Assembly (NCBI GenBank): GCA_030272155.1
Contig: CP126194.1
Span: 2,905,501-2,969,500, forward strand
Direction: 5' to 3'
DNA length: 64,000 bases
From: Tetradesmus obliquus
Lineage: Eukaryota; Chlorophyta; Chlorophyceae; Sphaeropleales; Scenedesmaceae
In this document: positions 1,015-60,200 of the stretch, piece after piece
How the letters are laid out: each line of letters starts with the position of its first letter
Numbering within the stretch: the stretch's first letter is position 1
The notes under the pieces: generated by a model
What the model was told of the DNA's origin: nothing
The model's database searches: none
The model's input: the letters and a program-made list of their open reading frames with translations, nothing else
Position numbers and translations under genes: made by a program

Positions 1015-3376
1015 TCACTTGATGTCTCTCCTTGACTTGACCACTGCCATGGCCTCCTGTAGCTTGCGGAAGCTGCTGCCAGCCATGGACGTCCTGAGCG
1101 CCAGCTCCGCCTGCTGCTGCTCCTCACTAGCTTGCAGCTTCCCTGCCCTCCACACCAGCTGCCGCGCCAGCTGCTCCGTACATGCTGAGCCAGCACTGCT
1201 GCAGCCATCGCCATGCTGGGTGGCTGTCCGCATGTCAGCAGCACTCCTGATGACCAGCTGCCTGCCAGCCAGCATGTCAACCTTGGAATCTGCTGCGCCG
1301 ACAGCCACAGCATCTGCTGTTGGCCGGCCACTGCCTGTTTTGCTTGAGCTTCTGCAGGTTCCCACAACAATCTCAGCCGGAGGTTGCTGCTCAGGCAGAG
1401 GCATCCCTGCTGTCTGCTTACTGCTGCTGCTGCTGCTGCGACTGAAGTGACGGCTTCCGTGCGATGGTGCAACCTTGCTGCTGCTCCCCCCTCTGCTGGT
1501 CTTGCCATCACCTGGCACACTGCTCCGACTCCTATCACTGAAACTTCTGTCATCACTGCCTTTCCCACTGCTGCATCTACTACTGCTGTTACTACTGCTG
1601 CCGCTGCTGCTGGGGCAGATGGTGGCGACACTGTCTGGCAGCGCTTCACAGACAGGCTCATCAACACCACCACCGCCAGCGGCTGGCTCAACACCAGCTT
1701 GCTGAAGCACAGTATGAGCTGCTGTCTGTCGTGCTGCTGCTGCTGCTGCTGCTGCTGCTTCTATGGCTGCCTTGTGCTGGGCAAGCTGCTGCAGCTGACG
1801 CCTAGCCAGCAAGCCCCTGCACATCGCCTGCAGCACCATCGCCGCCTCCCGTCGCTGCTGCCGCTGCATGTTCAGCACTTGCTGCTGCTGCAGCTTGTGC
1901 TGCTGCTTCTGCAACCTGGTTCGCAGCAGATCTGCAGTGGCTCGGCGCACCAGCCAACCCCTACAGCAGGCCTGCAGGACAGCTGCTGCTGCTTGCTGCT
2001 GCTTGTAGGATTTCCTGGCTCTGTAGCCCCTCCAGTAACGCTGCACAGTGCATGCTGCCTGCTGTCCATGGCGGATGTAGTACCCTCGCCATGCAGCATC
2101 GATGCTCTCCTGCTTGCAGTAAACATTAACCGGCTGCCGCAGTTGCTGCTGCCTGAGCTGCTGCTCCTGCTGCTGCCGGTCGAGTTGCATGTGCAGCATA
2201 GTGCGTCGCGCCTTCCTGCACCTGTATAGCCCTTGCAGGATTGTGGCTGCTTGCAGGACAGCTGCCAGCTGCCGCCGCGCAAGCAGGCCGCGCGTGTGCC
2301 GCTGTATGCTGATGGCTGCACGCTGCTGCACCAAAACCTCCCTGAAGTCCTTGCCAGCTGCCCCTGCTGTGCCTGGCGAGCTGTTGCTTGTTGGCTGGTT
2401 CAGCAGGCCTATAAGTTCATCATCCTCCTCTGCTGCTGCAGCTACTGCTGCTTCTGCTCCCAATGCTTGGACAGCTGGCTGCACTGAATGCTGCAGTGCT
2501 TGCGCTTCAGCTGTCTCTGATGACGGCCTATGCGCACCACAGCTCGCCCCACTGTCAGCTGCTGAGTGACTGCTGCAAGGAGCTGCAGCAATAGGGCTGG
2601 CACCTGGCTTGCAGCTGGAGCCAGCTGTGCCCTCGCTTGCGGATTCCTGGCTGCACCTGCGTCAATTCCACATGAGAGTTTCAAACCAGAAAGGCATTCA
2701 ACACATGCTATACCCTGAGCTGTAGCAGTGCAGAACGCATGTGCACGCACACCATGTACTTCCCGGAGGGCGGGCGAGTCTTACTTGTGTATCTCCTGCC
2801 AGTGGGCTGTTGTGCCTCTGCTGGGTTCTACTGCAGCAGGCAACTGTGGCTCGTCTGTGTCCAGCAGCTCCAACAGGGCCACGGACTCCTTGGCAGTGAT
2901 GCGGCTGGTTAGTGGTTGCCGGGGCGTGCTTGCTGCTGCTGCTTTGCTGCTGTTGCCTGCAGCTGGCGCTGGAGCTATTACGCGGACCTGCTGCTGCTGT
3001 GGTGCTGCTGTTTGGGACTGCTGCTGTGGGCGGGCTGGGAATGCTGCCAGCAACTCTCCGTCCACGTCAACCTCTCCAAGCAACCCCTGAAGCAAGTGGT
3101 ACACAGTCAGTGCTTGCGAGTCGGCTCCCTGTAGCTTTGTGCAAGCACTGCCAGCACTGCGCAAAGTGTGCAGCAAGGAAGCCCTACCTTGCTGAGGAAG
3201 GCATTGAGCTTCTTGCAACGCTCAAGCACGTCAAGTCCCTGCACCTCCTTGCTCTTCTGTTTCCAGTCAGACGTGGCTTGTCGGAGTGCCGCTTCCTTGT
3301 GCACAGCTTTCGTTTTGCCCTGGGCAGGTTGCTGCTGCTTGATGATGTTGTAGCTGACTGCTGTTGAGCGGCTCAT
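1015..3376 (-). CDS. IQ-motif protein with about six calmodulin-binding repeats
   Basis: Three exons (3188-3376, 2785-3128, 1015-2650) join in frame to a 722-aa protein, starting at MSRSTAVSYN and ending KSRRDIK. Donors are gtaggg and gtaaga; acceptors are ctacag and gtgcag. The large last exon carries an array of IQ-like motifs around residues 289-455: AAISIQRHTRGLLARR, AATILQGLYRCRKARR, IDAAWRGYYIRHG, ACTVQRYWRGYRARK, AVLQACCRGWLVRR and AMVLQAMCRGLLARR. IQ motifs bind calmodulin or EF-hand light chains, usually without calcium. The N-terminal ~230 residues have no motif I know; the C-terminal third is Ser/Gly/Ala-rich low complexity. There is no myosin head or other catalytic domain, so it may be a scaffold. 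Ciliary IQ proteins look similar, but nothing here proves that role. Confidence 0.8.
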
Positions 3377-4413
3377 TTGCCTGCTATAACATGCTCATTG
3401 AGCTTAATACGAAGACTACACTGCATGTTTTGGCTGTCTTGCGCGGCAGTGACGACGAACACACTTGGCGCGCTTCTGGGCTGAGCTCGGCATGCGAGCC
3501 CGTTCCTCAAGGCTTTTGCCGTACAAAGAGTGACATTGGCTGCGTTGTCCATATGGGAGCAGGTGTTAAGGGCAGGTGCTTGAACAGGCGCGTTGAACCA
3601 CAGCTGGCATGAGCCTGCACGTCATCTTGCCAACCTCACCGCACAATGCGCATTGCCCTGTAATGCGGTGACAAGGCGTTAGCAGGACAAACGTAGCGAC
3701 GATCATCGCGCTCTCAAGTCAGGAGTAGGACTGCGCCACCACCACCTTGTACTGTGGTGCTGTGCCCTGCAAAGTCGCTGCCCAGCATATCCAGCCTGAA
3801 GCAACTGCCGCAATAGGCCACATTTCCTTCCTTGGAACTACTTGCTTACATTTTGGTGATGATATAAAAAGCCTGGCAGCATGTTCCAGCTGCACAGAGC
3901 TGTGATCAACGTCCCAAATCAGAAGCCTCTGGTGCGCGCCCAACAACGCAAGTCTGCCATGCAAACAGCGTGGAAAAAGGAAGGCATAAGGATGAACAGT
4001 GGTGTACCAGGAGGAACTCATAAGGCTCCTGCGTTCAGAATACCAAGGTGTGCCACGCATGCTGCTGTCCAGTAACAGCACTGGAGCGCAGTTGACGGAG
4101 AGCACCACATGCAGCGGCCCAAACATGCTGACAAAACCAGCAATACCACACAACAAATGGTGCGCCAAGCACTGGCAGCCGCAACAGCAGCAGCAGCCAA
4201 GTGCCTGGCTAGCAGGCCTGGTCAATAGCTCGCCAGTTCATTATATTCAGCTGCAAGCAATGAAACTTGCCTACCACACAGAGTGCGGACGCGGGCCTAA
4301 GCTGAGCAAACTGGCAGGCAGGGCAACACAGCTGCAAACAACATGCTGCCTGGAAGCTACACAAAGCTGAAAGCAGCCACACCACACCAGGCTTGTAGAG
4401 CCCTGCCACAGCT
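3377..4413. other. Intergenic, no gene recognised
   Basis: This is the 5' flank of the IQ gene and the 3' flank of the helicase gene. Open frames here are short and lack splice or family support. A minus-strand TGTAA (ttaca, 3846-3850) could serve the helicase transcript but is far, about 560 nt, from its stop. Confidence 0.4.
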
Positions 4414-8967
<4,554 letters not shown>

Positions 8968-9339: not shown

Positions 9340-10559
9340 ATGGGCTCCAAGGGCAAGCCAGAGTGGCGCTTCTACCTGTCCTGCGATGTGGACCTGCAGG
9401 CAAGCACAGCAGCACTAGCAGCAGCAGCGTAACTTGCGCTACAGCTTACGCAAATATCAGACACTCAGCCTGCACAACAGCAGCCCTATGTTGTTGCCTT
9501 GCCCTCCAGCAGCGCTACCTCCTGCAAGCAAACCAGTAGGCGGGAGTGCCCTTCTCTGTGCCCACCTCTGTGCTGTCCATGCGCTGTGTACTGCACCACC
9601 AAGCAGGTCAAAGTGCGGGTATGCAGCCTGTACGGCTGCCTGCCTGGCGTGCGGCGCAAGCACGACTTGCAGGAAGCAGCGCAGCCCACTGCAGCCTTTG
9701 CAGTAGCGCAGCTGGTAGCAGGGGGTGAGGTGCTGGGCCTAGAGGCCAAGACCACATATGCAGAGACCATGCTTGAGGGCTGCAACTGGTCGGAGTGGCT
9801 GACGTTCTGCGTCAAGGTAGGGGCAGTTGCTGCAGTGTGCAAGCAGGCAGGCAAGCAAGCAGGCAGGCAGGCATCACCCGCAGTGTGTAGCATGCCAGCA
9901 GATGCATGCCCGCTTCTGACAGTGCAGGGTGTTGTTTCTGTACCTGCTTCTCTCCCTCTCTTGCTCTCTAGTCGGTGCTGGGAAGGAGCACCGCATGCAC
10001 ATGCAGCGCGCACACATCACTGGCTGACCCACTCTCCCTATGTTGCCGCTGTACGGTCTATCTGTATCGTCTATCTGTATCTGTACCTGCATCTCTCCCT
10101 GGCTGCAGTACTGCGACTTGCTGCCGGATGCCTACCTGTGCCTGGCACTGTACAAGCTGTGCGAAAGCCTTAAACTGCTCCTCCCAGCATTACTCATGTC
10201 GTTGTAGTGTGGGATCCTCAGAATGAGCAATGATCACATCCGGGTGCCTGTACCGTGCCTGGATGCAGTACCGCGACCTGCCGCCATATGCCTACCTGTG
10301 CCTGCAGTGCACATCACACACCTCCCAACACTGTGCATGTTGTTGCTGTGTGCATTTCTCAAATGCACATTGTGTTCACTTGGGTGTCTGCATCTCCACC
10401 TGGATGCAGTACCGCGACCTGCCGCCGGATGCCTTCCTGTGCCTGTCGCTGTACGAGCTGTGTGAGGGCCGGGCCATGGCCCTGGTGGGCTGCAGCAGCA
10501 TGCCGCTCTTCAGCAAGAAGGGACGGCTCAAGACAGGCCAGCAGCGCCTGCAGGTGCGC

Positions 10560-10594
<35 letters not shown>

Positions 10595-12225
10595 GCACAG
10601 GCAACAGAGCGCAACGGCTGCTGCTGAGGCACCTTCGCAGGAGTGGCAGCTGCAGCGCCTGAGCCTGTCTGTGCAGCTAGCTATCAATGCTGACATGTGT
10701 ACAGGCTTGCCATCACGTTATAGCGTGGGCTAAGCTGTCTCAAGCAACATGCTGTACAGCGGCGTATGTTTGGCATGCTGCTGCTCGCTGTCATTGCCTG
10801 CTTTGCTGCGCTCCCTGCAAACATGCTGTACAGCGGCGTATGTTTGGCATGCTGCTGCTCGCTGTCATTGCCTGCTTTGCTGCGCTCCCTGCATGTTTGC
10901 TGTTGGCACAGGTGTGGGAGGGCGCCGCCCTGGATCCCTCGCAGCCGCAGCTGCTACTGGGCAAGCCTTCCCTCAGCCAACGCAGCCAGGTGGGTAGAAG
11001 CAGCCCGGCAGACCAGCAGCGGCATACTTGAAGCAGATCTGCACCTCTGCCTGCAGTGCATCGCCTGCATCCTCCTCATGAACTTGTTGCAGTGCATCGC
11101 CTGCATCCTCCTCATGAACTTGTTGCAGTGTATCGCCTGCATCCTCCTCATGAACTTGTTGCAGTGCATCGCCTGCATCCTCCTCATGAACTTGTTGCAG
11201 TGCATCGCCTGCATCCTCCTCATGAACTTGTTGCAGTGCATCGCCTGCATCCTCCTCATGAACTTGTTGCAGTGCATCGCCTGCATCCTCCTCATGAACT
11301 TGTTGCAGTGCATCGCCTGCATCCTCCTCATGAACTTGTTGTAGTGCATCGCCTGCATCCTCCTCATGAACTTGTTGCAGTGCATCGCCTGCATCCTCCT
11401 CATGAACTTGTTGCAGTGCATCGCCTGCATCCTCCTCATGAACTTGTTGCAGTGCATCGCCTGCATCCTCCTCATGAACTTGTTGTAGTGCATCGCCTGC
11501 AGCGCATCGCCTGCATCCTCCTCATGAACTTGTTGTAAGGACACAACCGAGCATAAGCTGCGTCAGGGACAGGTGCTGCGTCATATGATTCAACTGACAG
11601 CTGAGCTTTAGGTCCAACCACTTGAAGCTGTGCCAACGTGCCAAGTTGTCGTGCCGGCTGATGAAGGCCCTGCATGCTGGGCGCCTACACAATATCTGTA
11701 CTATGCTGCGCTGCCGTTGTTGCTGCCGCTGCTGCTGCTGCTGGCACCAGGTGGGCCACTTGGAGCACCTGGTGAAGCTGTACAGCAGGGGAGACGTGCC
11801 ACGCTGCGACTGGCTGGACATGCTGGCATTCAAGGTGAATGCGGCAGCAGCAGCAGCTGAAGCAGCAGCAACAGCGCCAGCAGCAGCAGTACCTGGTGGT
11901 ATAGCTGCACATGCGCTTGCTGCATCAGCAACCACGGCAGCAAGGGTCGGATTTTATGTGCAGGGGTGCATCCACCTGCTGCGTGACATATGGGGATGTT
12001 GTTGGCAAAGGTACTGCGGAGCCTGCAGGGCAAGTTTCAAACACTTTAAACAGAAGCGCCAGCCTGGCATCAGGGCTAGCGATGCGCAAGCCCTAGTGTT
12101 AAGACACAGCTTTCACCTGCATGCCAGTGCAGCATATGGCTGGCGTCAGTCATCCTCAGCATATTGTGTGTTTGGAGCTTCTCCTCATGCGCGTTGATGC
12201 TTCATGCTGTCACTGAGCCTTTTGT

Positions 12226-12275
<50 letters not shown>

Positions 12276-12552
12276 AACCCGCAGCAGGTGCAGCGCATGC
12301 GCTCAGCAGAGCTGCAAGAGGCAGTGCAGCAGCAGGTGCTGCTGCTGTCACTTGAGCTGCCAGTCTTCCCTCACGCTGTGCTGTACCAGCAGCCGTTGTC
12401 TGCAGCGGCAGTCGTGGCACAAGGGCCTGGTGTTGCTGCTGCCTCTGCTGCTGCTGCTGCTACTGGGCAGGGGCCGTGGGGCCCCGGCAGTGGCAGCGAC
12501 ATCATCCGCATCCACGACCCTGAGGTAGGGCCACGTGCTCAGCCTCAACACA

Positions 12553-12614
<62 letters not shown>

Positions 12615-12710
12615 CAGCAGCAGTGTTGCGCGGCCACCGCTGCTGATGGCCCCAGTATTTGTGTTGGTCACCCTGCTCTCCTGGCACACTGCAACACATT
12701 GTTGCCGCCT

Positions 12711-12780
<70 letters not shown>

Positions 12781-12849
12781 GAGAACCCCGCCGAGCTCAG
12801 GGTAGCCAAGCCCAACATCACACACCTACCCCTGGCACACGACTCTGCA

Positions 12850-12881
<32 letters not shown>

Positions 12882-15567
12882 TGGGCTGGGAGAACCCTGC
12901 CGAGGTCAAGGCGGCCAAGCTGGCGCGCAGCGCCACACAGCTATGCTTGGCACATAACTCTGCACTGCTGCTGCTGCTGCTGCTGCTGCTGCTAGGTGGG
13001 CTGGGAGAACCCTGCCGAGCTCAAGGCGGCCAAGCTGGCACGAAGCGTCACCCGTGGCGTGATTGACAGGGAGCTCAAGCCCAACAGTGAGGAGCGGCGG
13101 CGCATCGCTGCGGTGCTGCGGCTGCCGCCCAACAAGCCGCTGCAGGCGGAAGCCAAGGCGCTGCTGTGGCGCTTCAGGTGGTTTCTTATTACTGCTGTTT
13201 GTGGTTGATGGTGGTTTTGTTGACGGAGTGCTTAATGGCAGTGCGAGCCGCTGCAGGCGGAGGCCAAGGCGCTGCTGTGGCGCTTCAGGTGCGCGTGTGG
13301 TGGCTGTGTATGGCGATGGTGTGGTTGGCATTGGGTCGGATCTGTTGATGAGTTGCATCTGGCAATGCAGCAGCTGCTGCTGCTAACAGGACTGGCGGAG
13401 GCATGGCCACTGGTGTTGACAGGCGCGCGTTTGCTCGCCAGGCGTGCGTGCCTGCTGCTTGGCACAGCGCGCCACATGTTCTGCCGGCACGCATCCACTT
13501 CTTGTGCACACTGGCTGATGCCTTCGTGGCTGCTGCTGCTGCTGCTGCTGCTGTCTGCTGTCTGCTGTCTGCTGCTGCGGCTGCTGCTGTCTGCTGTCTG
13601 CTGCTGCTGCTGCTGCTGCCAGGTTCTCCCTGGTGAGCGAGAAGCGCGCACTGACCAAGTTCCTCAAGTGCGTGGACTGGAGCGACGCGCAGGAGGCACA
13701 GCAGGTGCGCAGCCGCTACACAACCTTGTGGCTGCTTTGTATCTGCATGCATGCAGCGCTGCCTCTGCCTCAATACCCTGCTTGCTGCCGGCACTCAAAA
13801 CTCAAACTTCCACCTCAGCACTCTACTGGCAGTCACCAAGTGGTGTCTTGCTTTTCATTCCCATGCTCACCTACATGCTGCTGCTGCTGCTGCTGCTGCT
13901 GACATTGCTGCTACCGCCGCCGCCGCCAGGCCTCCGAGCTGATGCAGCAGTGGGCGCCCATTGAGGTGGCTGACGCGCTGGAGCTGCTGTCGCGTGACTT
14001 CAAGAATGACGAGGTCCGCGCCCACGCAGTGGCCACGCTGCAGGCCAAGGATGATGACGAGCTGCTGTACTACCTGCTGCAGGTGCGCTGCACTCTCTTC
14101 TTCTTTGTCAGTTTCGTGTCCAGTTTTGTGTCAGTTTCGTGGCAAGCCGCGCACCCCAAGCTGCTGTTGTGCTGGCCTGCAACCACGTGGTGTTTGTGAG
14201 TATGATTCGCATCAGGCTGGGGTGTCTGCAGTGGATGCGAAGGATCTGTAACTGTGCAGCAAGGTGCAGTTTCGCTGCGGGCGGCTTGCGCGCAAGATTC
14301 CCTGTTGTCCAGCCATGCTGCTGGTGCTGCAGCGCAGAGTTCCCCAGCACGCGCGCTGCTTTCAACACTGCCTGTGTGCGGCTCTGCTGCTGCTGCTGCT
14401 GCTGCTGCAGCTGGTGCAGGCGCTGCGCTTTGAGGCGTTTGACGACAGCAGGCTGGCGCGCTTCCTGGTGGGCCGAGCAGCAGCCAACCCTGCCTTTGCC
14501 ATCTTCCTGCACTGGTGAGGGCAGCAGCAGCAGCAGCAGCCGGCACACTGCAGCATCAGGCTGTGCTTTGCATGCTGTTATACATCGTACAATGTACATT
14601 GGTAGATGGATGGAACGTGGCTTCCATGCATCTTTGGTTTTTGTCTGTAGCATGTGCGCTGTACATCGTAGCAAGCAGATGCCTCCAAGCACTGCCTGCT
14701 GTGGTGCCCTGTAGGTACCTGCTCACGGACTGGGAGGACCCTGCATTTGGCAGGCACGCCTCACACTCAATGCAGTAGTGCCTTTATTACCACTGCCTTG
14801 TGCTGGCGGGTACACACCGCATGTTCACATGGCAGGTACCTGTTCACGGACTGGGAGAACCCCGAGTTTGGCTGGCTAATGTGCCACCGTGCACAACACA
14901 ACCTGCGTTGTGTGCGTCATTGACTGCCACAACAAAGTTCTCTTTCACAACTGCCTGGCCGCAGGTACCTGTTCACGGAGTGGGAGGACCCCGAGTTTGG
15001 CGGGCGCGCCTCTGCTGTGCACAGCGGGCTGGTCAACGCGCTGGCGGGCGCGGGGCGCGTGGGCGAGGCTGTGTGGCTGGCCATACGGCGCCAGACTGAC
15101 ATGATGAGCCAGCTGGCCTACATCAGCAAGGAGCTCAAGGTTGGTGGCTGGTTGGGTTTGAAGTTGAACGTGAATTTGAAGCTGGGTCATAGTGCTCTGT
15201 TTAAGATGTGCGCAGGCGCCAGACTGACATGATGAGCCAGCTGGCCTACATCAGCAAGGAGCTCAAGGTTAGTGGCTGGTTGGGTTTATATTTGAACGTG
15301 AATGTAAAGCAGGGTCGACGTGCTCTGTTTGAAACGTGCGCACGCGCCAGACTGACATGATGAGCCAGCTGGCCTACATCAGCAAGGAGCTTAAGGTTGG
15401 TGGTTTGCTGGGGTTGAATGCTAAGCAGGGTGGTCCACACGAACCCGGCTTGCTGGCACAAACGCTGCATGACAAACAACAACCCCGCCGCTGCTGCCTC
15501 ACTGCCATTTCCTCACAGATGTCCCGTTTTAAGGCCACTCATGCCACCAAACCTGCTGCTTATGATG

Positions 15568-15598
<31 letters not shown>

Positions 15599-16368
15599 TG
15601 CCTTCATGCCTTTCCCACATCTGCAGATGTCGCGCTTCAAGGCCACGCGTGCCACGGAGCGCATGCGCGAGATGGTGGCTGAGAGCGGGCCCTGCAGCGA
15701 GCTGGCCGCGCTGCGCGTGCCGCTGCCGCTGCAGCCCTCAACGCTGCTGGAGGGCCTGCTGCCACAGGTGTGCAGGGTTTGTTGATGGCTGGAAATGGCT
15801 TTGTTTGGTATGCTGATTTTGTGCGGCTGTCGCTGCAGCCGTCCAAGCTGCTGGAGGGCCTGCTGCCACAGGCGTGTGTCAATGGTGTTGGTTGTAGTGT
15901 GCCTGTGCTTTAGGCTTTACATTTTGTTTTGTCAAAGTGCTGATGCGCCGCAGCCCTGTGTGCTGCTGGAGGTTCTGCTGCCACAGGTGTGTGTGGCATC
16001 TGGTGCCGGCTGCAGTGTGCTTGCTGTACTGCTGCGTTTTGAGTGAAGTCGGTGCAGCACCAGTCCAGAACTGTGGATGGCAGTGGAACTGACATTGAGG
16101 CGGGTGTGCTGTGCTGCAGGACTGCACTTGCTTCAAGTCTGCACAGCTGCCCATCAAGCTGGTCTTTAAGGCAGCACCGCAGCCAATAGACTGGACCAGC
16201 CCAGCGCCGCTGGCTGGCTCAGTACATGCAGCAGCAGCAGCAGCAGCGCCGCTAGCAGCAGCAGGCGGCAACTGGCCGGATGCAGCAGCAGCAGCGAGTG
16301 GGACTCAGCTGAGGTCTCAGGCGGCTGCTGCTGCTGCTGCTGGTGATGCCAGCCCGCTGTCAGGCAGT

Positions 16369-16433
<65 letters not shown>

Positions 16434-17163
16434 GCCTGCTGATGGGCGCTGTGTGGTGATCTACAAGAAGGGTGACGACTTGCGCCAAGACCAGTTTGTG
16501 CTGCAGGTGGGAGGGGCACAGCAGGGACCGTGTGCAATTGGTGTAGATATCGGTTGCAGTTGCAGTTGGCCCTGTAGGAGAGGGGCCAGTTGAGGCCAAG
16601 GCAAACCCCTGGTCTGCACCCTTCTAGATCAACATAGCAAAAACCTGTGTGATAGGGTGTTGACCCCTGCACTCTGCCACGCCCCCTGGCAGATGATCAG
16701 CCTCATGGACAACTTGCTCAAGCGGGAGACAGCAGTCTTGATCTGCATGGTCTCCGTCCGCACTCACACCCTCTCACACTCTGTCTCACCTCTCACCCCA
16801 CTTGCACAGATGATCAGCCTCATGGACAACCTGCTCAAGAGGGAGAACCTGGACCTGCGCCTGACACCATACACGGTGCTGCCCACAGGTGGGGCGTGTT
16901 AATATTTTTCAGTTTCGAGTTTTAAGAAGCAGCAGTGCCAATGTGTGGAGCAGTAGGCTGGCCAGGGTGCTATGCTGGTGCTGCTGCTGTGTGCCAGGCG
17001 TAGGTGCACTGATAGGGGCGGTAGAAAGCAGCAACCGTGAAGCCATGCGGCTGCACGCATGCTGAGCAGCACGAGCAATGCCGTACAGCATAAAAGCATG
17101 AGTGCTTCATGCTTTACATAGAAGTCTATGGTATGCCATCCAGGCGTGCTAGCAACAACCATG

Positions 17164-24475: not shown

Positions 24476-24943
24476 GTGCCTCCCATCCTAGATAAGAGTG
24501 ACGTAGTCACGGGAAACTGCATCAGCGCAGTTACCACTGCATCAGCGCAGTTCTTGGCAGAGGTGACAGTGCCAGCGCAGGCGCACCCGCACCGGCCAGT
24601 CCTTCTTCCAGCTCGCGTGCTGCGGGTGACATCGCAGCAGCACCTGCAGCAGGTGCTTGCTCAGTTGGAACATGAGTTTGACGTACCGCTGCAGTACTCC
24701 GTGCAGTATCTGCTGCCAGCACAGCCACCCATGCAGCCGCAGCTGCCGCCTCAGCAGCCGCCTGTGCAGCCACAGCCTCAGCTGCTGCCTCAGCAGCAGA
24801 CTGTAGCACGCGCAAAGACAGCATCACAGCAAGAACGCCTGCGGCACCAGTTTGTGCAGCAACTGGAGCAGCGGTTTCAAGGCAACGCCACCTCAGACCT
24901 GCCCGGCACAGGTGAGCCGGCATCTGGCACTGCAGTAGGCTGA
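24476..24943 (+). CDS. Gln/Pro-rich open frame inside the Helitron-like element
   Basis: A 155-aa frame reads VTSQQHLQQVLAQLEHEFDV, then a Pro/Gln-rich linker, then RLRHQFVQQLEQRFQGN. Its second half recurs in the tandem copies (26374-26667 and 28098-28391). It could be captured host sequence or an exon of the element. I know no matching domain. Confidence 0.3.
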   Translation: MPPILDKSDVVTGNCISAVTTASAQFLAEVTVPAQAHPHRPVLLPARVLRVTSQQHLQQVLAQLEHEFDVPLQYSVQYLLPAQPPMQPQLPPQQPPVQPQPQLLPQQQTVARAKTASQQERLRHQFVQQLEQRFQGNATSDLPGTGEPASGTAVG

Positions 24944-26205
24944 TGTGGGCCAGTGCAATGGGCTTTGGCGCATTGCATAAGGCTGCAGTGGCCTGCGCAG
25001 CAGGCAGCATGGCAATGCAGAGTGCTGCAGACTGCCGCTAAGCAGCTGTGTGCGAGCCCTAGCATCCCTGTGGCCATTGGGCAGTCAAGCTAAAGGTCCT
25101 GCACTGTGTTTGCTATGCCGCTTTGCAGGTGCTGCTGCAGGCAATGCAGGCATGTTACTCGGTGCTGTTGCTGCCGTTGCGGCAGCTGTTGGTGCCAGTG
25201 GCGCAGCTCCTGCGGCAAAGGGAGAGAGGTCTGTTACAGGGGTGGGCAAGCTATCGCCCTAGAGCGAGTCACTTGCCCCTCTTTCAGCTCACATATCATG
25301 AGAACCCGATAGCAAGCCACAAGATGCAACCAAAGTAATACTCCAGAGGCATCTTGCAGCCCCTACCTCCCCATAAACCAACAAGTACATGCAGTGCAGC
25401 ATGTGCGAAGTGCAGCACGAAAAGCAGCAGGGTGCTCAAAGCACAGGGCACAAAACGCACAAGGGAAGGCAGGCATGGTCCAAACAACAAGCGGGATGCA
25501 CAATGGTGCTGCTTAACATAGGTGTTTGGCATGATTGCACCAAGGCACTGATGTACACACCAGACTGCAGCAAGCAGGAGCACGCGGGACCGACAGGAGA
25601 CACTGCATGTGACATGCAAACTAAGGTGCTACTGCTTCTGCAATCCTCATGGCTGACAAGCACAGAAGCACGCAATGCGACACACAGAGCTGGAAAATCA
25701 AGCACAGTGACACACGACATGCAACATGGCCTTGCCAGAAAGTGGAGATTGGACAACTACTGACAGCACATCATGTAAAAGCAGGAAGGTCAACCAGAGC
25801 GGGGCGCCAGTACAATGCGCAGCTGTGCTGGAAGAAGAAGAGGGGTTACACGGTGTGCACAGGCAACTACGTTGCAACGAACACCCGAAAATCTGGAACG
25901 TCGCAGATGACTCAGCAAAACAGGCTGTCACTCAAGGAGACTCACCCCAAAAAGTCTCGCGGTGTGTGTAACTTGACATATGGCCTTGCAGGCAACTGTG
26001 CTGGATCAGATCGCAAGAACGGGCAAGAAGAAAGAAGAAAAGGGGTTACACGGTGTGGAAGAAGAAGAGGGGTTACACGGTGTGCACAGGCAACTACGGG
26101 CAAACCCCGCCCTCATGTAGGCTTGCAATCGTCTACATGTGGCATCCAACACACGCGAAATGTGTTTGTATGCTAGGTGTCCAATTTGGTCTACTTGGTA
26201 TGCGC

Positions 26206-26397
26206 GCAGGCTTCTATGCTCAAGGATCAGGGATCGAATCCCAGTGAGAGCAATCTGTTGGGTCGCTGGTCCAAGCTATGCTTGGGTTGCTTGAATACTA
26301 CGCAGGCTTCTATGCTTAAGGATCAGGGATCGAATCCCAGTGAGAGCAGTCTGTTGGGTCGCTGGTCCAAGCTATGCTTGGGTTGCTTGATTACTAC
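26206..26397 (+). repeat. 96-bp tandem pair with tRNA-Arg-like segment (copy in unit 1)
   Basis: Two 96-bp units (26206-26301, 26302-26397), each holding ggatcgaatcc, which resembles the pol III B box GGTTCGANTCC. Before the first unit, tggtctacttgg (about 26188-26199) resembles an A box. The segment between aligns by eye with tRNA-Arg(UCU), sharing GCGCG, CTTCTA and the T-loop, but the anticodon stem does not pair, so it is not a working tRNA. Confidence 0.55.
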
Positions 26398-27929
26398 CAG
26401 TTTGACGTACCGCTGCAGTACTCCGTGCAGTATCTGCTGCCAGCACAGCCACCCATGCAGCCGCAGCTGCCGCCTCAGCAGCCGCCTGTGCAGCCACAGC
26501 CTCAGCTGCTGCCTCAGCAGCAGACTGTAGCACGCGCAAAGACAGCATCACAGCAAGAACGCCTGCGGCACCAGTTTGTGCAGCAACTGGAGCAGCGGTT
26601 TCAAGGCAACGCCACCTCAGACCTGCCCGGCACAGGTGAGCCGGCATCTGGCACTGCAGTAGGCTGATGTGGGCCAGTGCAATGGGCTTTGGCGCATTGC
26701 ATAAGGCTGCAGTGGCCTGCGCAGCAGGCAGCATGGCAATGCAGAGTGCTGCAGACTGCCGCTAAGCAGCTGTGTGCGAGCCCTAGCATCCCTGTGGCCA
26801 TTGGGCAGTCAAGCTAAAGGTCCTGCACTGTGTTTGCTATGCCGCTTTGCAGGTGCTGCTGCAGGCAATGCAGGCATGTTACTCGGTGCTGTTGCTGCCG
26901 TTGCGGCAGCTGTTGGTGCCAGTGGCGCAGCTCCTGCGGCAAAGGGAGAGAGGTCTGTTACAGGGGTGGGCAAGCTATCGCCCTAGAGCGAGTCACTTGC
27001 CCCTCTTTCAGCTCACATATCATGAGAACCCGATAGCAAGCCACAAGATGCAACCAAAGTAATACTCCAGAGGCATCTTGCAGCCCCTACCTCCCCATAA
27101 ACCAACAAGTACATGCAGTGCAGCATGTGCGAAGTGCAGCACGAAAAGCAGCAGGGTGCTCAAAGCACAGGGCACAAAACGCACAAGGGAAGGCAGGCAT
27201 GGTCCAAACAACAAGCGGGATGCACAATGGTGCTGCTTAACATAGGTGTTTGGCATGATTGCACCAAGGCACTGATGTACACACCAGACTGCAGCAAGCA
27301 GGAGCACGCGGGACCGACAGGAGACACTGCATGTGACATGCAAACTAAGGTGCTACTGCTTCTGCAATCCTCATGGCTGACAAGCACAGAAGCACGCAAT
27401 GCGACACACAGAGCTGGAAAATCAAGCACAGTGACACACGACATGCAACATGGCCTTGCCAGAAAGTGGAGATTGGACAACTACTGACAGCACATCATGT
27501 AAAAGCAGGAAGGTCAACCAGAGCGGGGCGCCAGTACAATGCGCAGCTGTGCTGGAAGAAGAAGAGGGGTTACACGGTGTGCACAGGCAACTACGTTGCA
27601 ACGAACACCCGAAAATCTGGAACGTCGCAGATGACTCAGCAAAACAGGCTGTCACTCAAGGAGACTCACCCCAAAAAGTCTCGCGGTGTGTGTAACTTGA
27701 CATATGGCCTTGCAGGCAACTGTGCTGGATCAGATCGCAAGAACGGGCAAGAAGAAAGAAGAAAAGGGGTTACACGGTGTGGAAGAAGAAGAGGGGTTAC
27801 ACGGTGTGCACAGGCAACTACGGGCAAACCCCGCCCTCATGTAGGCTTGCAATCGTCTACATGTGGCATCCAACACACGCGAAATGTGTTTGTATGCTAG
27901 GTGTCCAATTTGGTCTACTTGGTATGCGC

Positions 27930-28121
27930 GCAGGCTTCTATGCTCAAGGATCAGGGATCGAATCCCAGTGAGAGCAATCTGTTGGGTCGCTGGTCCAAGC
28001 TATGCTTGGGTTGCTTGAATACTACGCAGGCTTCTATGCTTAAGGATCAGGGATCGAATCCCAGTGAGAGCAGTCTGTTGGGTCGCTGGTCCAAGCTATG
28101 CTTGGGTTGCTTGATTACTAC
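27930..28121 (+). repeat. 96-bp tandem pair with tRNA-Arg-like segment (copy in unit 2)
   Basis: This is the 1,724-bp-displaced duplicate of the pair at 26206-26397, with the same B-box-like core in each half. Its end coincides with the start of the third, partial large repeat unit. Confidence 0.55.
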
Positions 28122-28815
28122 CAGTTTGACGTACCGCTGCAGTACTCCGTGCAGTATCTGCTGCCAGCACAGCCACCCATGCAGCCGCAGCTGCCGCCTC
28201 AGCAGCCGCCTGTGCAGCCACAGCCTCAGCTGCTGCCTCAGCAGCAGACTGTAGCACGCGCAAAGACAGCATCACAGCAAGAACGCCTGCGGCACCAGTT
28301 TGTGCAGCAACTGGAGCAGCGGTTTCAAGGCAACGCCACCTCAGACCTGCCCGGCACAGGTGAGCCGGCATCTGGCACTGCAGTAGGCTGATGTGGGCCA
28401 GTGCAATGGGCTTTGGCGCATTGCATAAGGCTGCAGTGGCCTGCGCAGCAGGCAGCATGGCAATGCAGAGTGCTGCAGACTGCCGCTAAGCAGCTGTGTG
28501 CGAGCCCTAGCATCCCTGTGGCCATTGGGCAGTCAAGCTAAAGGTCCTGCACTGTGTTTGCTATGCCGCTTTGCAGGTGCTGCTGCAGGCAATGCAGGCA
28601 TGTTACTCAGTGCTGTTGCTGCCGTTGCGGCAGCTGTTGGTGCCAGTGGCGCAGCTCCTGCGGCAAACCCCGCCCGTCGCCGCAATTGGGTGCAGAATTT
28701 GTGTGCCCGTGTGCAGCGTGATCAACAACAGCGGCAAAACCGGCAGCAGAACGCACATGCACAGCGTGGCAGTCGGCGCCTACAGCAGCAACATGTGTGC
28801 ACCCCGGCCTGATGG

Positions 28816-33935: not shown

Positions 33936-34446
33936 ACAGCCCTCAGCGAAGCTGTGCTGCGGGCAGTTGAGCTTGGCGCGCTTCACCGCAGGGCTGCTCT
34001 GCGCACCCTGCAGCTGTTGTTGCTGCTGCTGCTGCTGGTGGTGAAGAGCAGCCAATTGAGCAACCAGCTGATCACCATGCACGCATTCCAGCTGCCAATG
34101 CTGCCATTGCTGCTGCTCCTGGGGCAGCTCTTGGTGTCCTTCCATCTGCTGCCCTGCTGCTACAGCACCAGCCACACGGCCCATGGGTGCCGTGCCACCA
34201 GCAGCAGCAGCAGCAGCAGCAGCACCAACTTCATCGCTAGCACCCGATGCTGTTGCGCCCTCATCGCCCCAACTGGCGTGGCTGCAGCCGGCACCGCTGT
34301 GCTCAAACCCCTCAGCATCATCCTCGTCGTCATCATCCAGCAAATCAAGCACATCATATGACAGCGCCGCAGCTGCTGCTCGATGCTCCTCCATATGCTG
34401 AGCATGCTGGCCAGACTCCTCCCCAGCTGCCGCACACTGACCTCCA

Positions 34447-34480
<34 letters not shown>

Positions 34481-36861
34481 CTCCAGAGTCCTGCTGATCA
34501 GCAGCCTCACCCTGCTGTTGCTGCTGCTGCTGCTGCTGCTGCCTGCCCTGCAGGATCATGCGCTGCAATGCATTCAGCCTGCCACCGGCTGCAGCAGCAT
34601 CCAAAGCATCACCCGCCGTCACCACTCGCCGCAGCGCTGAGCCCCGCACCCCCATCAGCCGAATCTCGCAGGGCAGCTCGGCCCGCAGCAGCTTCAGCAC
34701 AGGCGGCAGCATCTGCTGCGGCGTGTGCACGTGGCCGGGCAGCGTGACGGCGCGCGTGCGCACCGCAAAGTCGGTGGTTTTGAGCTTCAGGGTGAGGGTT
34801 TTGGCGGCAATGCCCTCCGACTCCATGTCCGCTGCCAGGTGCTGCACCAGCGTCTCAGCCTGCAGGACAGCAGCAGTGCAACGCAGGCACGCCAAAACCT
34901 GCCATCAAACACACACTCATACAACAGCGCACAAGTCGCGGGACAACACCGTGCTGCTTGCCCGCTTGTTGCGCTGGGCTCCCCGCATGCAAAGCATCAA
35001 CCGAGACTTGTTACGCTCCAAGTTTGACCAAACGCAACCCGCCTCACCATCTTCTCCATCTCTGCAGGGCTTGACATGTTGGCAAAGGTGCGCTCGCAGC
35101 TGATGCCCTTGCGGCTCACACCACCACCAGCGCCAGCACCACCCTCATCCCCTCTGCTGCTGCCGTGCTGCGTGGCCCCCAGCCCCAGCCCCACACTGAG
35201 GAAGAAGTGTGACGAGATGCTGCTGAAGAGTGCCGAGATGAGTGCGCGCTGCTGCAGCAGGTGGCCGCAGCTTGTGATGCCGAGCGCATTTAGGGTTTGC
35301 TCGCTGACCTTGCCAATACCTGGCACCTGCAGCAGTGCGTATACACATCTGGTGAGTATCAATCGAAACGAAACGCTGAACGTAGCATGCGTTACCAAGC
35401 ACTGCGTGCTGGGCGTGTTGATATAAGGCATGCTAACTGGCGGCAGGTATTCCACACCCCAGCACAAGTACTGCCAGCAGACACAGAAGCGCACAGCCCA
35501 CATACACCACCACCAGCACCAGCAGCGCATACACATACAACAACGCACATTGAACATGTTACGTGCAGCGTTCACCTTGCGGATCGGCAGGTCCTGCACG
35601 AAGGCCATCACCGCCTCCCTGCTGCTGCCCACCAGAGCCTGCCCGTTGGGCTTGTTCAGATCTGAGGCCACTTTTGCAAGCGTGGCATTAGGCGCCACGC
35701 CTACGCTGCAGGTCAGACGCGTGGCTGCCTCCACGCCAGCGCGCAGCGCGGCAGCAACCTGCAGGAGGCACCGTCACACAAGTTTGACCAGGGTTTGACC
35801 AGCACAGCGCTGCTTACTGTACTGCGCAGCCTTTCACAATTCAAGGCCTGGAAGAAGAGGGCACGCTACATTCACTAACAGCATCTATCAACGTGCAGCT
35901 GGGCCTCCGTAAATCAGGTTCATGATGTCCCCACCTGCTCCCCAGTCATGCTGTGTGCCGCGCAGTAGTCTGTCACATCCAGGTAAGCCTCATCCAGACT
36001 GCCCGCCACAAAGTGCGGGTCGTACAGCTTGAACACCTCGCGCGTTGCTGCGCTGGCCGCCTCATACTTGCGGAAGTCCGGTTTGACAAACAACAGCTGG
36101 TGGAGAAGGCAGATGTCGAGTGTGAGGAGTAGAGTGGTGCAAGGAGGGCGCATGGTAGGGTGCGGGTGTGTGAGCTACACAGTAAGGCGCTCAGCCAGTC
36201 AGGACAAGCTGGGATGAGCTAGCACACCTACTAGCAAGCATTCATGCACGTTGGAGTGACAAGCGCAGCTGACACCAGCAGACATGGCCTGGCTGTGCAG
36301 CACATGCAAATGCTGCAGGCAGTGAAAAAGTTTGGTTGCCGACAGCGCAGGAACAATCCCATGACAGTAGCGCTTTTCAAGTGCACCATGCACCCGCCTG
36401 CTGCCTGCTAGACAAGCTGCAGCCTCACCTGTGGGCACAGCTTGCGCGCAATGAAGCCTGGCATCGCTGATCGCACCCCAAACTTGCGCGCCTGCAGGAG
36501 GAGCATGCGCGCCGCACAAACACAGCATGCCGTCAGCTGTGGTCGACTCCTGCACCCCTGCCACCTTCACCAGTTCATGCAACACTGTCCAAAGCCCAGC
36601 ATAAAGCGGCCTACCTGCAAACCAGCAACTTTCTGTACAATCTTGCTGTGACACGAAAGCTTTCGGCCAAACAACGCTGCATCATCTGCCTGTTTGTTTA
36701 GACACAACACCAGTTTGTAGCAGCTGACTGCCCTGCTGCAGTGCCTGCGCAGTACCTCGTAGTTTGCGGTGGTGATCATTCCCATGCCGCCAACGGCCAT
36801 GGGCTTGCTTGCCAAATCCGGCCGGTCAAGCTCCTCAACACTGCAGAAGCAGCGGGAGCAG

Positions 36862-44750: not shown

Positions 44751-48719
<3,969 letters not shown>

Positions 48720-57200: not shown

Positions 57201-60200
57201 ACTTGTGCGTCTCCAGCTCCTGCACCCGCCTGCGCAGGCCCTGCAGCGATGCATAGTTGTCGCCAATCACGCCGTCCCTCTCAGCCAGCTCCCCCCGCAG
57301 CTTGTCTGCCACAGCAGCAGCCTCAGCCAGCTGCTGCTTGAGCCCAGAGAGCTGCAAGGCCAGTGCGTCTATCTGCGCTGCATCTGCTGCCTTGTCTGCC
57401 TTGAGGCGGCCGTTGCTGCGCAGCAGGATGTTGATTTCTGCTTTTAGCTTCATCTCAACCTGCAGCAGCAGCGGCAGCAGCAGCAGCAGCAGCAGCAGCA
57501 GCCAACATGTTATCAACAGTCATGCATGTTCAGTACAAGGAGGAGCAGTAAGCATGCTAAGCTTCAGCATCAGGCTACCCTGACATCATGACTTGAACGG
57601 AGCCTGTACATGTCATCTGCCACTGGCTGGCAGTAGCAGTCCACAGCCTGATTGGCTTCCAAGCTGCCGGTGCATACAGGCCTGTCAGAAACAAGAAGCT
57701 GGCTTTCAACACGCTGCGCACCTCTCCTGCTTCATGGCGTGCGGCTGCCAGCCTGTCGCCATCCCGCTCTGCCTGCAGTTCCAGGTCCTCTTCTGTCTGC
57801 ATCAGCACCTCCTGCCAGACTGCGGCAGCCTCTGCTGCAACAGCTGCAGCTGACTCGCCTTTAGCAGCTTCTGCAGCTAGCTGCTGTCTGCAGGAAGCAA
57901 AAGAAAAGCAGTGGGACCGCTTGCAAAGAGCTCAAGCTGAGCATGTGCTCCTGGCTTCTGCTGTTGAACCACTTACAACAGGGCAGCAGAGTGTGACCAG
58001 GTGTGCATCCAACCTCATAAACGACCGAAACGAACATCCGGAAAAAAGGTAAGGCCCTACCCAGGTTCGAACTGGGGTCACTGGATTCAGAGTCCAGTGT
58101 GATAACCACTACACTATAGAGCCGGTAGTGTCGAACTCCTGTGAGAGAGCCGGATTAGGATGCCCATATACATGATTGTGGCATAAATGACCGCCGCGTT
58201 GTGCGGCGCAACTTCGAACCCCGGCGCGATCGTTGCATTTTCGATTTTTGTTTGAGTTGCCCACCCCTGTTTCAGACCTCTCTCTCTCTTTGAGTAACCA
58301 GAGCCAGCTTTCCTGTTGTTTTGCTGATAGGACAGCTAGCGGTATAACGTGTGCACTGATATCCACTGCTCTTCCGCCGCAAAATCATGTTGCCTCGAGG
58401 CTTAAGAACGGTGCCTTGAGTAGTGATGCCTACCACCCTCTGTTGAGCCGTTGACTCTACAGCATGTTGGACATGGCAGCACCCCTGAAACCCCCACTAT
58501 CAAAGCACCACCAGTGAAACATGTCAAAGTCCCGCGATTCCACCCACCTGTACATGTTGTGTACCTCAGCTAGCTGTCGTTCTGCAGTTGCAGCCTGGCG
58601 CCGCATCTCCTCCTGCAGACATACACAGCAAGAAGCCATTCAACAGCAGCTCAGCATAGCAAGCACAAACACCCACATGTCGTGGCGGCACTGCTGGCAA
58701 GCAAACTACCGGCCAGCACAGGGTAGCAGAAGTCAATGCAGGGCCTAAACCACATGTGGATGCACCTGAATGTACCACGCACCCCAGCACATACTTCTGC
58801 CAAACATGTATGCCCCAATGTTCTGCGTGTCAAACCCCGCCCACCTTGAGGCTGAGCTCCAGGTCGTCTTTTGTTGCTGCAAGCTGCGCCAGGCGCTCGC
58901 CCTCAAGCGCTAGCCGCGCCTCATACAGCCCCTCGAGCTGCTCAGCTGCAGCTGCGTGCAGCGACTCCAGCTCCTTCGCCACCTTCGCAGTGCATTGCAG
59001 TAAAAACAGCAGCCGGTGGCAGCAGCAAGTTGGTTGATGACAGAGGGCACTGCGCATATGCTGACAGGACTGCTGTCGCTGTTGGTGCAGCCAAGCACGC
59101 AAAGCATGGTACACGGAGTACGCAGGAGGCGGCAACAGCACTGCGCTCAGGCCAAGGGTCCGGCCATGCAGTAGCGCAGCATGACAGCAGGCAGCGTGGT
59201 CAGCGCTGCCAAGCTGCGCCTGCCTAGCACCTCCCTGCCAACACACCTGCTGCTGGTTGGTGTCGGCTGCCACCTGGGTCTCTGCCAATGCCGTGCGCAG
59301 CTGTGCAACTTCACGTGACAGCTGCGCTGCCTGGCTGTCGCTCAACCCCAGGGACTCTTTCAGCGCCTGAGTCTGGCGCAGCACCTGTGAAGGCATACAT
59401 GTCGCACACATGCATCGGCATGACAGATAAAGCAACGTGCCCGGCTGGACAGAAAACCCCAAGAGCAGGGGGTTCTCTGCTCTCCAGTTCTGTTGCCAGC
59501 AGTGCAGGGGCCTGTGCTGCAGACATGCATTGCATGTAGCATAGCAGCAGCGCTGGGCCCACTGGCCATACAGGCATACCTGGTACTGGGCCTCCTTCTG
59601 TGCTGCCGTCACTGCTGCTGCCATTGCCCTCAGCCGCTCCCGCATGGCCAGCAGCAACCCCTCATCCACCAGCACCACAGGCAGCGGCAAGCCAGGCACG
59701 CCCCCAGCAGGCACGAGCGCCCCCAGGCTGGCAGCCGTCAGCCCTGCGGCAGCGCAGCAGCAACCCCTCATCCACCAGCACCACAGGCAGCGGCAAGCCA
59801 GGCACGCCCCCAGCAGGCACGAGCGCCCCCAGGCTGGCAGCCGTCAGCCCTGCGGCAGCGCAGCAGCCAACTAGTACAATCACTCCCCTGCTGATTGCAG
59901 CGGACTACAGCTGCTCCGCTGGTAGCAAGTAATTGGCACATATGCATGCAGGTGCTTTGCCTCATCAGGCCAGCAGGGTGCCAGAGGCTGCAGGTCACCA
60001 GTATCACAACATACGGTGACTCCTACCTGAGCCAAGCGATATAGCTGCTGCAGCTGCTGTTGCGGCAGAGCCTGCTGCTGTTGCTGAAGGTGGTAGGGCA
60101 AGTGGTGGCGGCTCGGTGAGGATGCCATCAAGCACCAGTGTCAAGCTGCTCATCATCACCAGGCCATCAACACTGCACATGGGGACATGTTTGAAGCAGT

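Follow-up and report, generated by a model that had tools for sequence, protein, structure and literature searches.

The stretch of DNA analysed here, called the window below, is 64,000 nucleotides long and comes from the green alga Tetradesmus obliquus (contig CP126194.1, our C4, positions 2905501-2969500; genome of 104.66 Mb in 17 contigs). It holds a gene for VPS34, the ends of whose exons are the subject of this report. When the exons between 9613 and 19431 are joined through the copies attached to the exon bodies, a single frame results that is open up to the stop; this joined frame begins after an unassigned first exon and start codon. A part of 401 amino acids, from which exon 6 was excluded, matched chains of phosphatidylinositol 3-kinase catalytic subunit type 3 in the PDB (best E = 1.4e-69). 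Since this match comes together with an open frame, the real exon boundaries are well supported. With a part of 416 amino acids as the query, ten matches were obtained in the genome, every one of them at the VPS34 locus (13 candidates scored).

VPS34 carries short tandem copies of its own exon ends. Self-comparison at lags 30-699, alignments of seven pairs and the contexts of the splice sites showed that 8 boundaries have additional partial copies of the exon, 13 in all, with a spacing of 104-160 bp (Table 1). The self-comparison returned 62 pairs at these lags and 6 at control lags of 3000-3669, one of the 6 (score 543) being probably due to a 1,724-bp repeat elsewhere in the window. A canonical AG or GT is retained in 11 of the 13 copies, the exceptions being the far copy of the exon 7 head and the first extra copy of the exon 12 tail. 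All this confirms a sequence-only reading of the locus, which had counted at least nine partial copies at seven or more boundaries, placed them 100-160 bp apart and held that most keep a usable AG or GT. At all 8 boundaries a donor pairs with a donor and an acceptor with an acceptor; each extra copy is intronic, and the reading frame is open without the copies. The same reading described every repeat as spanning a boundary, which is right for the 13 exon-end copies and wrong for two repeats of the gene that are purely intronic (last two rows of Table 1). One coding exon of VPS34 contains, at 16370-16432, a 21-unit run of the CAG type that is translated as glutamines, and CAG/CTG runs are frequent throughout the window.

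Table 1. Exon ends of VPS34, their extra copies and intronic repeats (window coordinates; lags in bp; TRF, Tandem Repeats Finder)
Feature	Position	Splice site	Strand	Observations
Exon 3 head, extra copy 1	10109..10169	10109	+	AG kept; lag 301 to real head, 84% over 83 bp from 10087
Exon 3 head, extra copy 2	10258..10304	10269	+	AG kept; lag 141, 94% over 47 bp; intron half 66% over aligned columns
Exon 3, body-attached copy	10410..10553		+	Open frame, VPS34 match
Exon 7 head, far copy	12781..12811	about 12781	+	AG lost to CTG run; lags 109 and 224, 84% and 87%
Exon 7 head, near copy	12880..12936	12881	+	AG kept; lag 115, 93% over 57 bp; 115-bp TRF array
Exon 7, real	12996..13177		+	Open frame, VPS34 match
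Exon 7 tail, extra copy	13246..13291	13288	+	GT kept; lag 111, 98% over 46 bp
Exon 11 head, far copy	14713..14762	14715	+	AG kept; lag 250, 86% over 50 bp
Exon 11 head, near copy	14832..14876	14836	+	AG kept; lag 129, 93% over 45 bp
Exon 11, real	14965..15139		+	Open frame, VPS34 match
Exon 11 tail, first extra copy	15215..15267	15267	+	GT kept; lag 128, 90% over 201 bp including intron; 128-bp TRF array
Exon 11 tail, second extra copy	15344..15395	15395	+	GT kept; lag 256, 93% over 75 bp
Exon 12 head, extra copy	15516..15547	15519	+	AG kept; lag 108, 84% over 32 bp
Exon 12, real	15627..15767		+	Open frame, VPS34 match
Exon 12 tail, first extra copy	15821..15876	15871	+	GT changed to GC; lag 104, 89% over 56 bp
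Exon 12 tail, second extra copy	15946..15991	15986	+	GT kept; lag 219, 85% over 46 bp
Exon 14 head, extra copy	16690..16729	16693	+	AG kept; lag 117, 95% over 40 bp
Exon 14, real	16810..16888		+	Open frame
Perfect intronic tandem duplication, 74 bp x2	10746..10893		.	TRF, 100%
Intronic minisatellite, 36 bp x12.5	11052..11501		.	TRF, 98%

The pattern is not peculiar to VPS34 and recurs on other contigs. We sampled a further 250 kb from contigs C1, C2 and C6 and 40 kb from C10 and C14. With a score of at least 25 required, the 64-kb window held 15 families, the 100 kb of C1 held 43, the 100 kb of C2 held 8 and the 50 kb of C6 held 26; the corresponding pairs at lags 60-500 were 52, 122, 49 and 74, compared with 0, 8, 4 and 1 at control lags 5000-5440. 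By eye, the alignments from C1 and C6 mostly consist of an exon end plus the splice core. A similar scan over 20 kb each, with a score of at least 24, gave 8 families in C10 (control 0) and 12 in C14, where the control lags gave 13 pairs. Long repeats of a different type make up many of the C14 families; two families (14121 and 14717) resemble exon-end copies by eye. The long, near-identical repeats of C14 (L029 1453-8464) have a spacing of mostly 290-370 bp, unlike the exon-end arrays, and are possibly a satellite or transposon array.

The families prefer exon boundaries. In 314 kb, 49, 47 and 49 of 90 families overlapped a predicted splice junction in three rounds of an uncurated gene finder used side by side (in the last one, some exons of VPS34 were missing or truncated), against 19.7, 21.3 and 21.5 expected from random placement within 3 kb. 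The sequence-only reading had asked for such a comparison with random windows, and its outcome agrees with the preference claimed there. The gene models were made with simple repeats masked and with raised intron costs. The overlap count is probably a floor and the true figure higher, because the finder missed exons that hold families scored as intergenic or intronic, such as those of a ClpP-like gene on C1 and exons 7 and 14 of VPS34. A spacing of 100-140 bp was found in 41 of 91 pooled families. A smaller rise at 220-260 bp (11/91), about twice the unit, may partly reflect next-but-one copies, as one best-scoring lag was taken per family. The 27 of 373 introns that hold a copy have a median length of 487 bp, compared with 236 bp for the others. 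This difference fits the duplication-driven intron growth that had been proposed for VPS34, although long introns also give copies more room.

From 215 pairs we selected 84 clean copies (spacing 85-320 bp, block 30-130 bp, a coding score, both splice sites scoring at least 1, and one copy per site); two pairs that belong to the 1,724-bp repeat remain among them. They comprise 44 tail (donor) and 40 head (acceptor) copies by an automatic and imperfect labelling, which called heads at least two tail pairs of VPS34, that of exon 7 (13134) and one of exon 12 (15737); 82 have enough intron to align. Copies are clustered by gene (permutation p = 0.006 over predicted genes). VPS34 has 8 clean copies, a gene matching Tic110 has 15, a mitochondrial-carrier gene 6 and a COX15-like gene 3, compared with only 3 across twelve genes of C2 and 1 across five other genes of the window. 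The gene names are taken from Pfam, the carrier gene being named from two exons, one of them below the Pfam cut-off. The ClpP-like gene (C1 18-23 kb), named by eye and absent from the gene models, is also rich in copies. At C1 22438 (L004 2439-2822) the end of its last exon is duplicated together with the 3' untranslated region (3'UTR); here 6 of 6 counted coding differences fall on third codon positions, and the untranslated part is nearly identical.

The two halves of a copy differ in their similarity to the original. In an ungapped profile over the 44 donor and 40 acceptor copies, identity stays at about 0.9 through the exon part, falls to about 0.6 by intron bases 6-10 and reaches chance by about base 22; as the pairs were found through similar exon blocks, the height of the exon plateau is ascertained, and the position of the step is not obviously so. 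For 36 of the 82 pairs, the alignment of the intron halves exceeded the 95th percentile seen with unrelated introns, and the intron halves of the other 46 could not be distinguished from unrelated introns. Pairs with exon halves that are 96-100% identical often have no alignable intron half. The splice sites of the copies score like the real ones (donor 4.41 versus 4.61, acceptor 5.74 versus 5.88; background 1.31 and -0.07), a strength that is partly ascertained because a good site score was a selection criterion. At the inner ends of the copies a partner splice site was not above chance: scores over 3 occurred in 0.32 of 44 tails versus 0.42 at random and in 0.12 of 40 heads versus 0.15, and scores over 5 in 0.20 versus 0.24 and 0.10 versus 0.08, respectively. 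As a group, the 84 copies are therefore not complete mini-exons or mutually exclusive exons, although single copies may differ.

The shared descent of 36 of 82 intron halves indicates tandem duplication as the origin in those pairs. Arrays of at least three copies make up 18 of 82 clusters (17 were used below), and several of them contain three or four distinct versions by eye. In one C6 array an older spacing of about 125 bp underlies a repeat of 251 bp at 95%, and two spacers there are alike to 95%, which indicates that units expand.

For the codon-level comparison, 61 pairs were counted, to the exclusion of frameless pairs and of those lying at 25-29 kb or past 59 kb in the window; 55 had a frame from the gene models, and 54 remained without the 3'UTR duplication at C1 22438, which was dropped only from this last count and is still present in the other codon counts. 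By our own reckoning, dead copies beside a constrained exon should show a ratio of nonsynonymous to synonymous differences (pN/pS) near 0.5 and an exon divergence of at least about half the intron divergence. The ratio over the 54 pairs was 0.27 (0.20-0.37). Where the intron halves could be aligned (26 pairs; intron mismatch 0.252), the nonsynonymous differences reached 0.35 (0.23-0.49) of the dead-copy expectation and synonymous ones 0.81 (0.62-1.05). Synonymous differences in C1 equalled the intron divergence (63.0 versus 61.2 expected). Extra copies compared with each other in arrays of at least three gave a ratio of 0.40 (29 non-independent pairs from 17 clusters). pS is near 0.2 overall, with 0.09 in the carrier gene and 0.19-0.28 in the genes of C1. 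These values are a lead and not yet a finding on the window, to the effect that the copies may be under coding-type constraint across the sample, mostly in one 100-kb region (C1) and weakly in VPS34.

We favour the following explanation, at a probability of about one half: the copies form tandem arrays buffered by splicing, are swapped by slippage, and would each sometimes be tested as a real exon end. Local tandem duplications with a favoured unit of about 100-140 bp would arise in genes of this genome. Where the unit spans one splice junction, we infer that the spliceosome would join the copy continuous with the exon body and discard the others as intron, so that such a duplication would survive and lengthen the intron. 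Mid-exon duplications would be removed by selection, and mid-intron ones would soon become unrecognisable through fast intron divergence; together these two filters would yield the boundary bias. Slippage between the direct repeats may then delete units and switch which copy adjoins the exon body. In some lineages or haplotypes each copy could thus be the real exon end and be exposed to selection. Such swapping would explain why copies not translatable where they lie should be under coding-type constraint. The boundary bias, the favoured spacing, the longer introns with copies, the partly shared descent of the intron halves, the lack of partner splice sites above chance, the arrays of at least three copies and the low pN/pS over the sample speak for this explanation. 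A more far-reaching form of the idea is that exon ends are interchangeable, with intronic partial copies kept under protein-coding constraint through slippage swapping and genes carrying tested spare splice junctions; we put it forward tentatively and think it unlikely.

Several results weigh against swapped and tested copies. Without C1 the ratio rises to 0.46 (22 pairs), and for exon parts of up to 60 bp it is 0.42 (0.30-0.59; 36 pairs), both near the 0.5 that we expect of a dead copy. For longer exon parts it is 0.15. VPS34 itself is near neutral, with a pS of 0.07 and a pN of 0.05 (5 pairs). Outside C1, synonymous differences amount to 12.0 versus 31.5 expected (10 pairs), so that both types of change are cut alike there, to 0.38 (synonymous) and 0.41 (nonsynonymous) of expectation; such a like reduction would fit homogenisation. 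Finally, pS is nearly uniform over 55 pairs (chi-square 68.7, 54 df, p = 0.087) and pN is not (p = 5e-7), whereas pS should vary if the duplications differed in age.

That the copies are plain dead decoys left by tandem duplication, with the boundary bias reflecting a viability filter plus easier detection beside a conserved exon, seems to us rather unlikely. The geometry, the boundary bias and the longer introns all fit this explanation, as do the near-neutral ratios in VPS34, in the mitochondrial-carrier gene and in short exon parts. It is close to the earlier suggestion of selection that hides duplications where splicing can discard them, which agrees with the geometry of VPS34 and is not borne out sample-wide, where exon halves decay too slowly for dead sequence. 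The drop in identity next to the splice site, from about 0.9 to about 0.6 over a few bases, argues against dead decoys, with the caveat that the pairs were found by similar exon blocks, and so do the nearly identical exon halves beside unalignable intron halves and the nonsynonymous differences at 0.35 of expectation. Similarity restricted to exons would also be accounted for if the copies came from diverged alleles or a hybrid partner through template switching between homologs that match in exons, or if the assembly had mixed two haplotypes. A synonymous divergence near 0.2, nearly uniform across pairs and equal to that of introns in C1, speaks for such a source. PMC7955037 reports a Scenedesmus genome, similar in size, that is likely diploid with separated alleles; the kinship of that genome to the present one is a guess. 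Two alleles would not supply the three or four versions seen by eye in several arrays. Some copies are clearly degenerate, near-perfect tandem arrays reveal local duplication, and pS is lower in VPS34 and the carrier gene than in the genes of C1. Four exon-end copies used as queries were without a match elsewhere in the genome in a coarse search, in which one query found just itself and missed its own neighbours. These matches and those of the 416-residue part of VPS34, local only, also speak against a paralogue or second locus as the source. All in all, we regard diverged alleles as an unlikely source.

Direct selection on the copies, for instance as splice-site decoys that regulate or slow splicing, would suit the conserved exon halves and the site scores, the latter with the reservation that good scores were required. 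An RNA-level function does not predict the synonymous freedom together with amino-acid constraint seen in C1, which disfavours pure RNA-level constraint there, and we judge this kind of selection highly improbable. Translation in place is unlikely too: tail copies with a spacing not divisible by 3 gave a ratio of 0.24 (16 pairs). A spacing divisible by 3 was found in 25 of 54 framed pairs (18 expected), which would favour translation, though in only 31 of 84 clean copies (28 expected). In-frame read-through is not favoured either, as the ratio was no lower at spacings divisible by 3 (0.32 versus 0.24). Pure gene conversion of the exon halves is disfavoured in C1, where synonymous sites diverge like introns, and not outside C1. 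We consider it very unlikely that foreign sequence (a mobile intron, or filler at a staggered break) was inserted with a long target duplication that included the splice site by chance. The 46 of 82 intron halves that are indistinguishable from unrelated introns would be expected of it. Its spacers should then be related, but those compared (59 of 62, of at least 25 bp) form no family and matched only between array neighbours or through simple or short repeats; this comparison was among the spacers and did not search the whole genome. On this ground a mobile element or introner was rejected. The shared descent of intron halves in 36 pairs and the existence of full-length arrays, such as the 128-bp array at the exon 11 tail, also oppose an insertion.

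The processes involved are known in general, intron gain by tandem duplication being established and internal duplication across boundaries having reportedly been described before. Gao and Lynch are said to have reported in 2009 internal gene duplications that span exon-intron boundaries, in which, as here, the duplicated unit includes a splice site. At 8 boundaries of VPS34 the direct-repeat unit includes one exon-intron boundary, as in an internal tandem duplication. Unlike those duplications, the present copies cover part of an exon at its end, some 20-120 bp, stand in arrays of 2-4 and are dense in some genes, and part of the sample has exon halves that look protein-constrained though they are not exons. 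Tandem exon duplication with mutually exclusive exons likewise places duplicated coding sequence beside the original, whereas the copies described here are without a second splice site above chance. The RdRp gene of potato is reportedly a case of intron gain by tandem duplication. That new introns arise when an exonic segment bearing AGGT is duplicated in tandem is established (PMC3443670). This process resembles the present case in that a tandem duplication within a gene leaves extra sequence that is spliced out and the protein unchanged. It differs in that the new intron lies inside an exon, with one copy serving as donor and the other as acceptor, whereas here existing boundaries are duplicated and existing introns are longer. 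Such pairing of donor with acceptor was not found in VPS34 (8 of 8 boundaries pair like with like), and the wider scan covered sites of the same type only. Tandem repeats and splicing also interact, with removal of repeat units, in UBC and other tandem-repeat genes that have dual-specific splice sites and whose coding monomers are cut at AGGT (PMC10809524). In our case the extra copies are intronic and each has a single type of site. In the open-access literature, surveyed by titles and the starts of abstracts, we found no description of arrays of partial exon ends in algal introns, nor of the density, unit size and slow exon-half evolution seen here.

Other features of the window can be listed briefly. 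The 1,724-bp repeat mentioned above lies at 24675-28422 in head-to-tail order, and 300-base test stretches from three of its units are 100% identical; it is either a tandem array of very recent origin or a repeat created by the assembly. A perfect tandem duplication of 106 bp, a length not divisible by 3, is found at 59649-59867 within a predicted gene, and a perfect CA dinucleotide run of 108 units at 44864-45079. The minus strand carries at 58052-58123 a tRNA-Gln (ctg), in a genome rich in CAG runs. A predicted exon at 34170-34859 encodes an IMS_C domain of Y-family DNA polymerases (E = 4.6e-11).

If our explanation is true, this genome would offer a live, datable system for the growth of introns and for the tolerance of splice sites to copies close by, a single genome providing many natural experiments. 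Automatic gene finding and homology searches may yield false exons in such genomes. If the coding-like constraint on the intronic copies is real, selection would act on sequence not expected to be translated from any transcript of the sampled genome.

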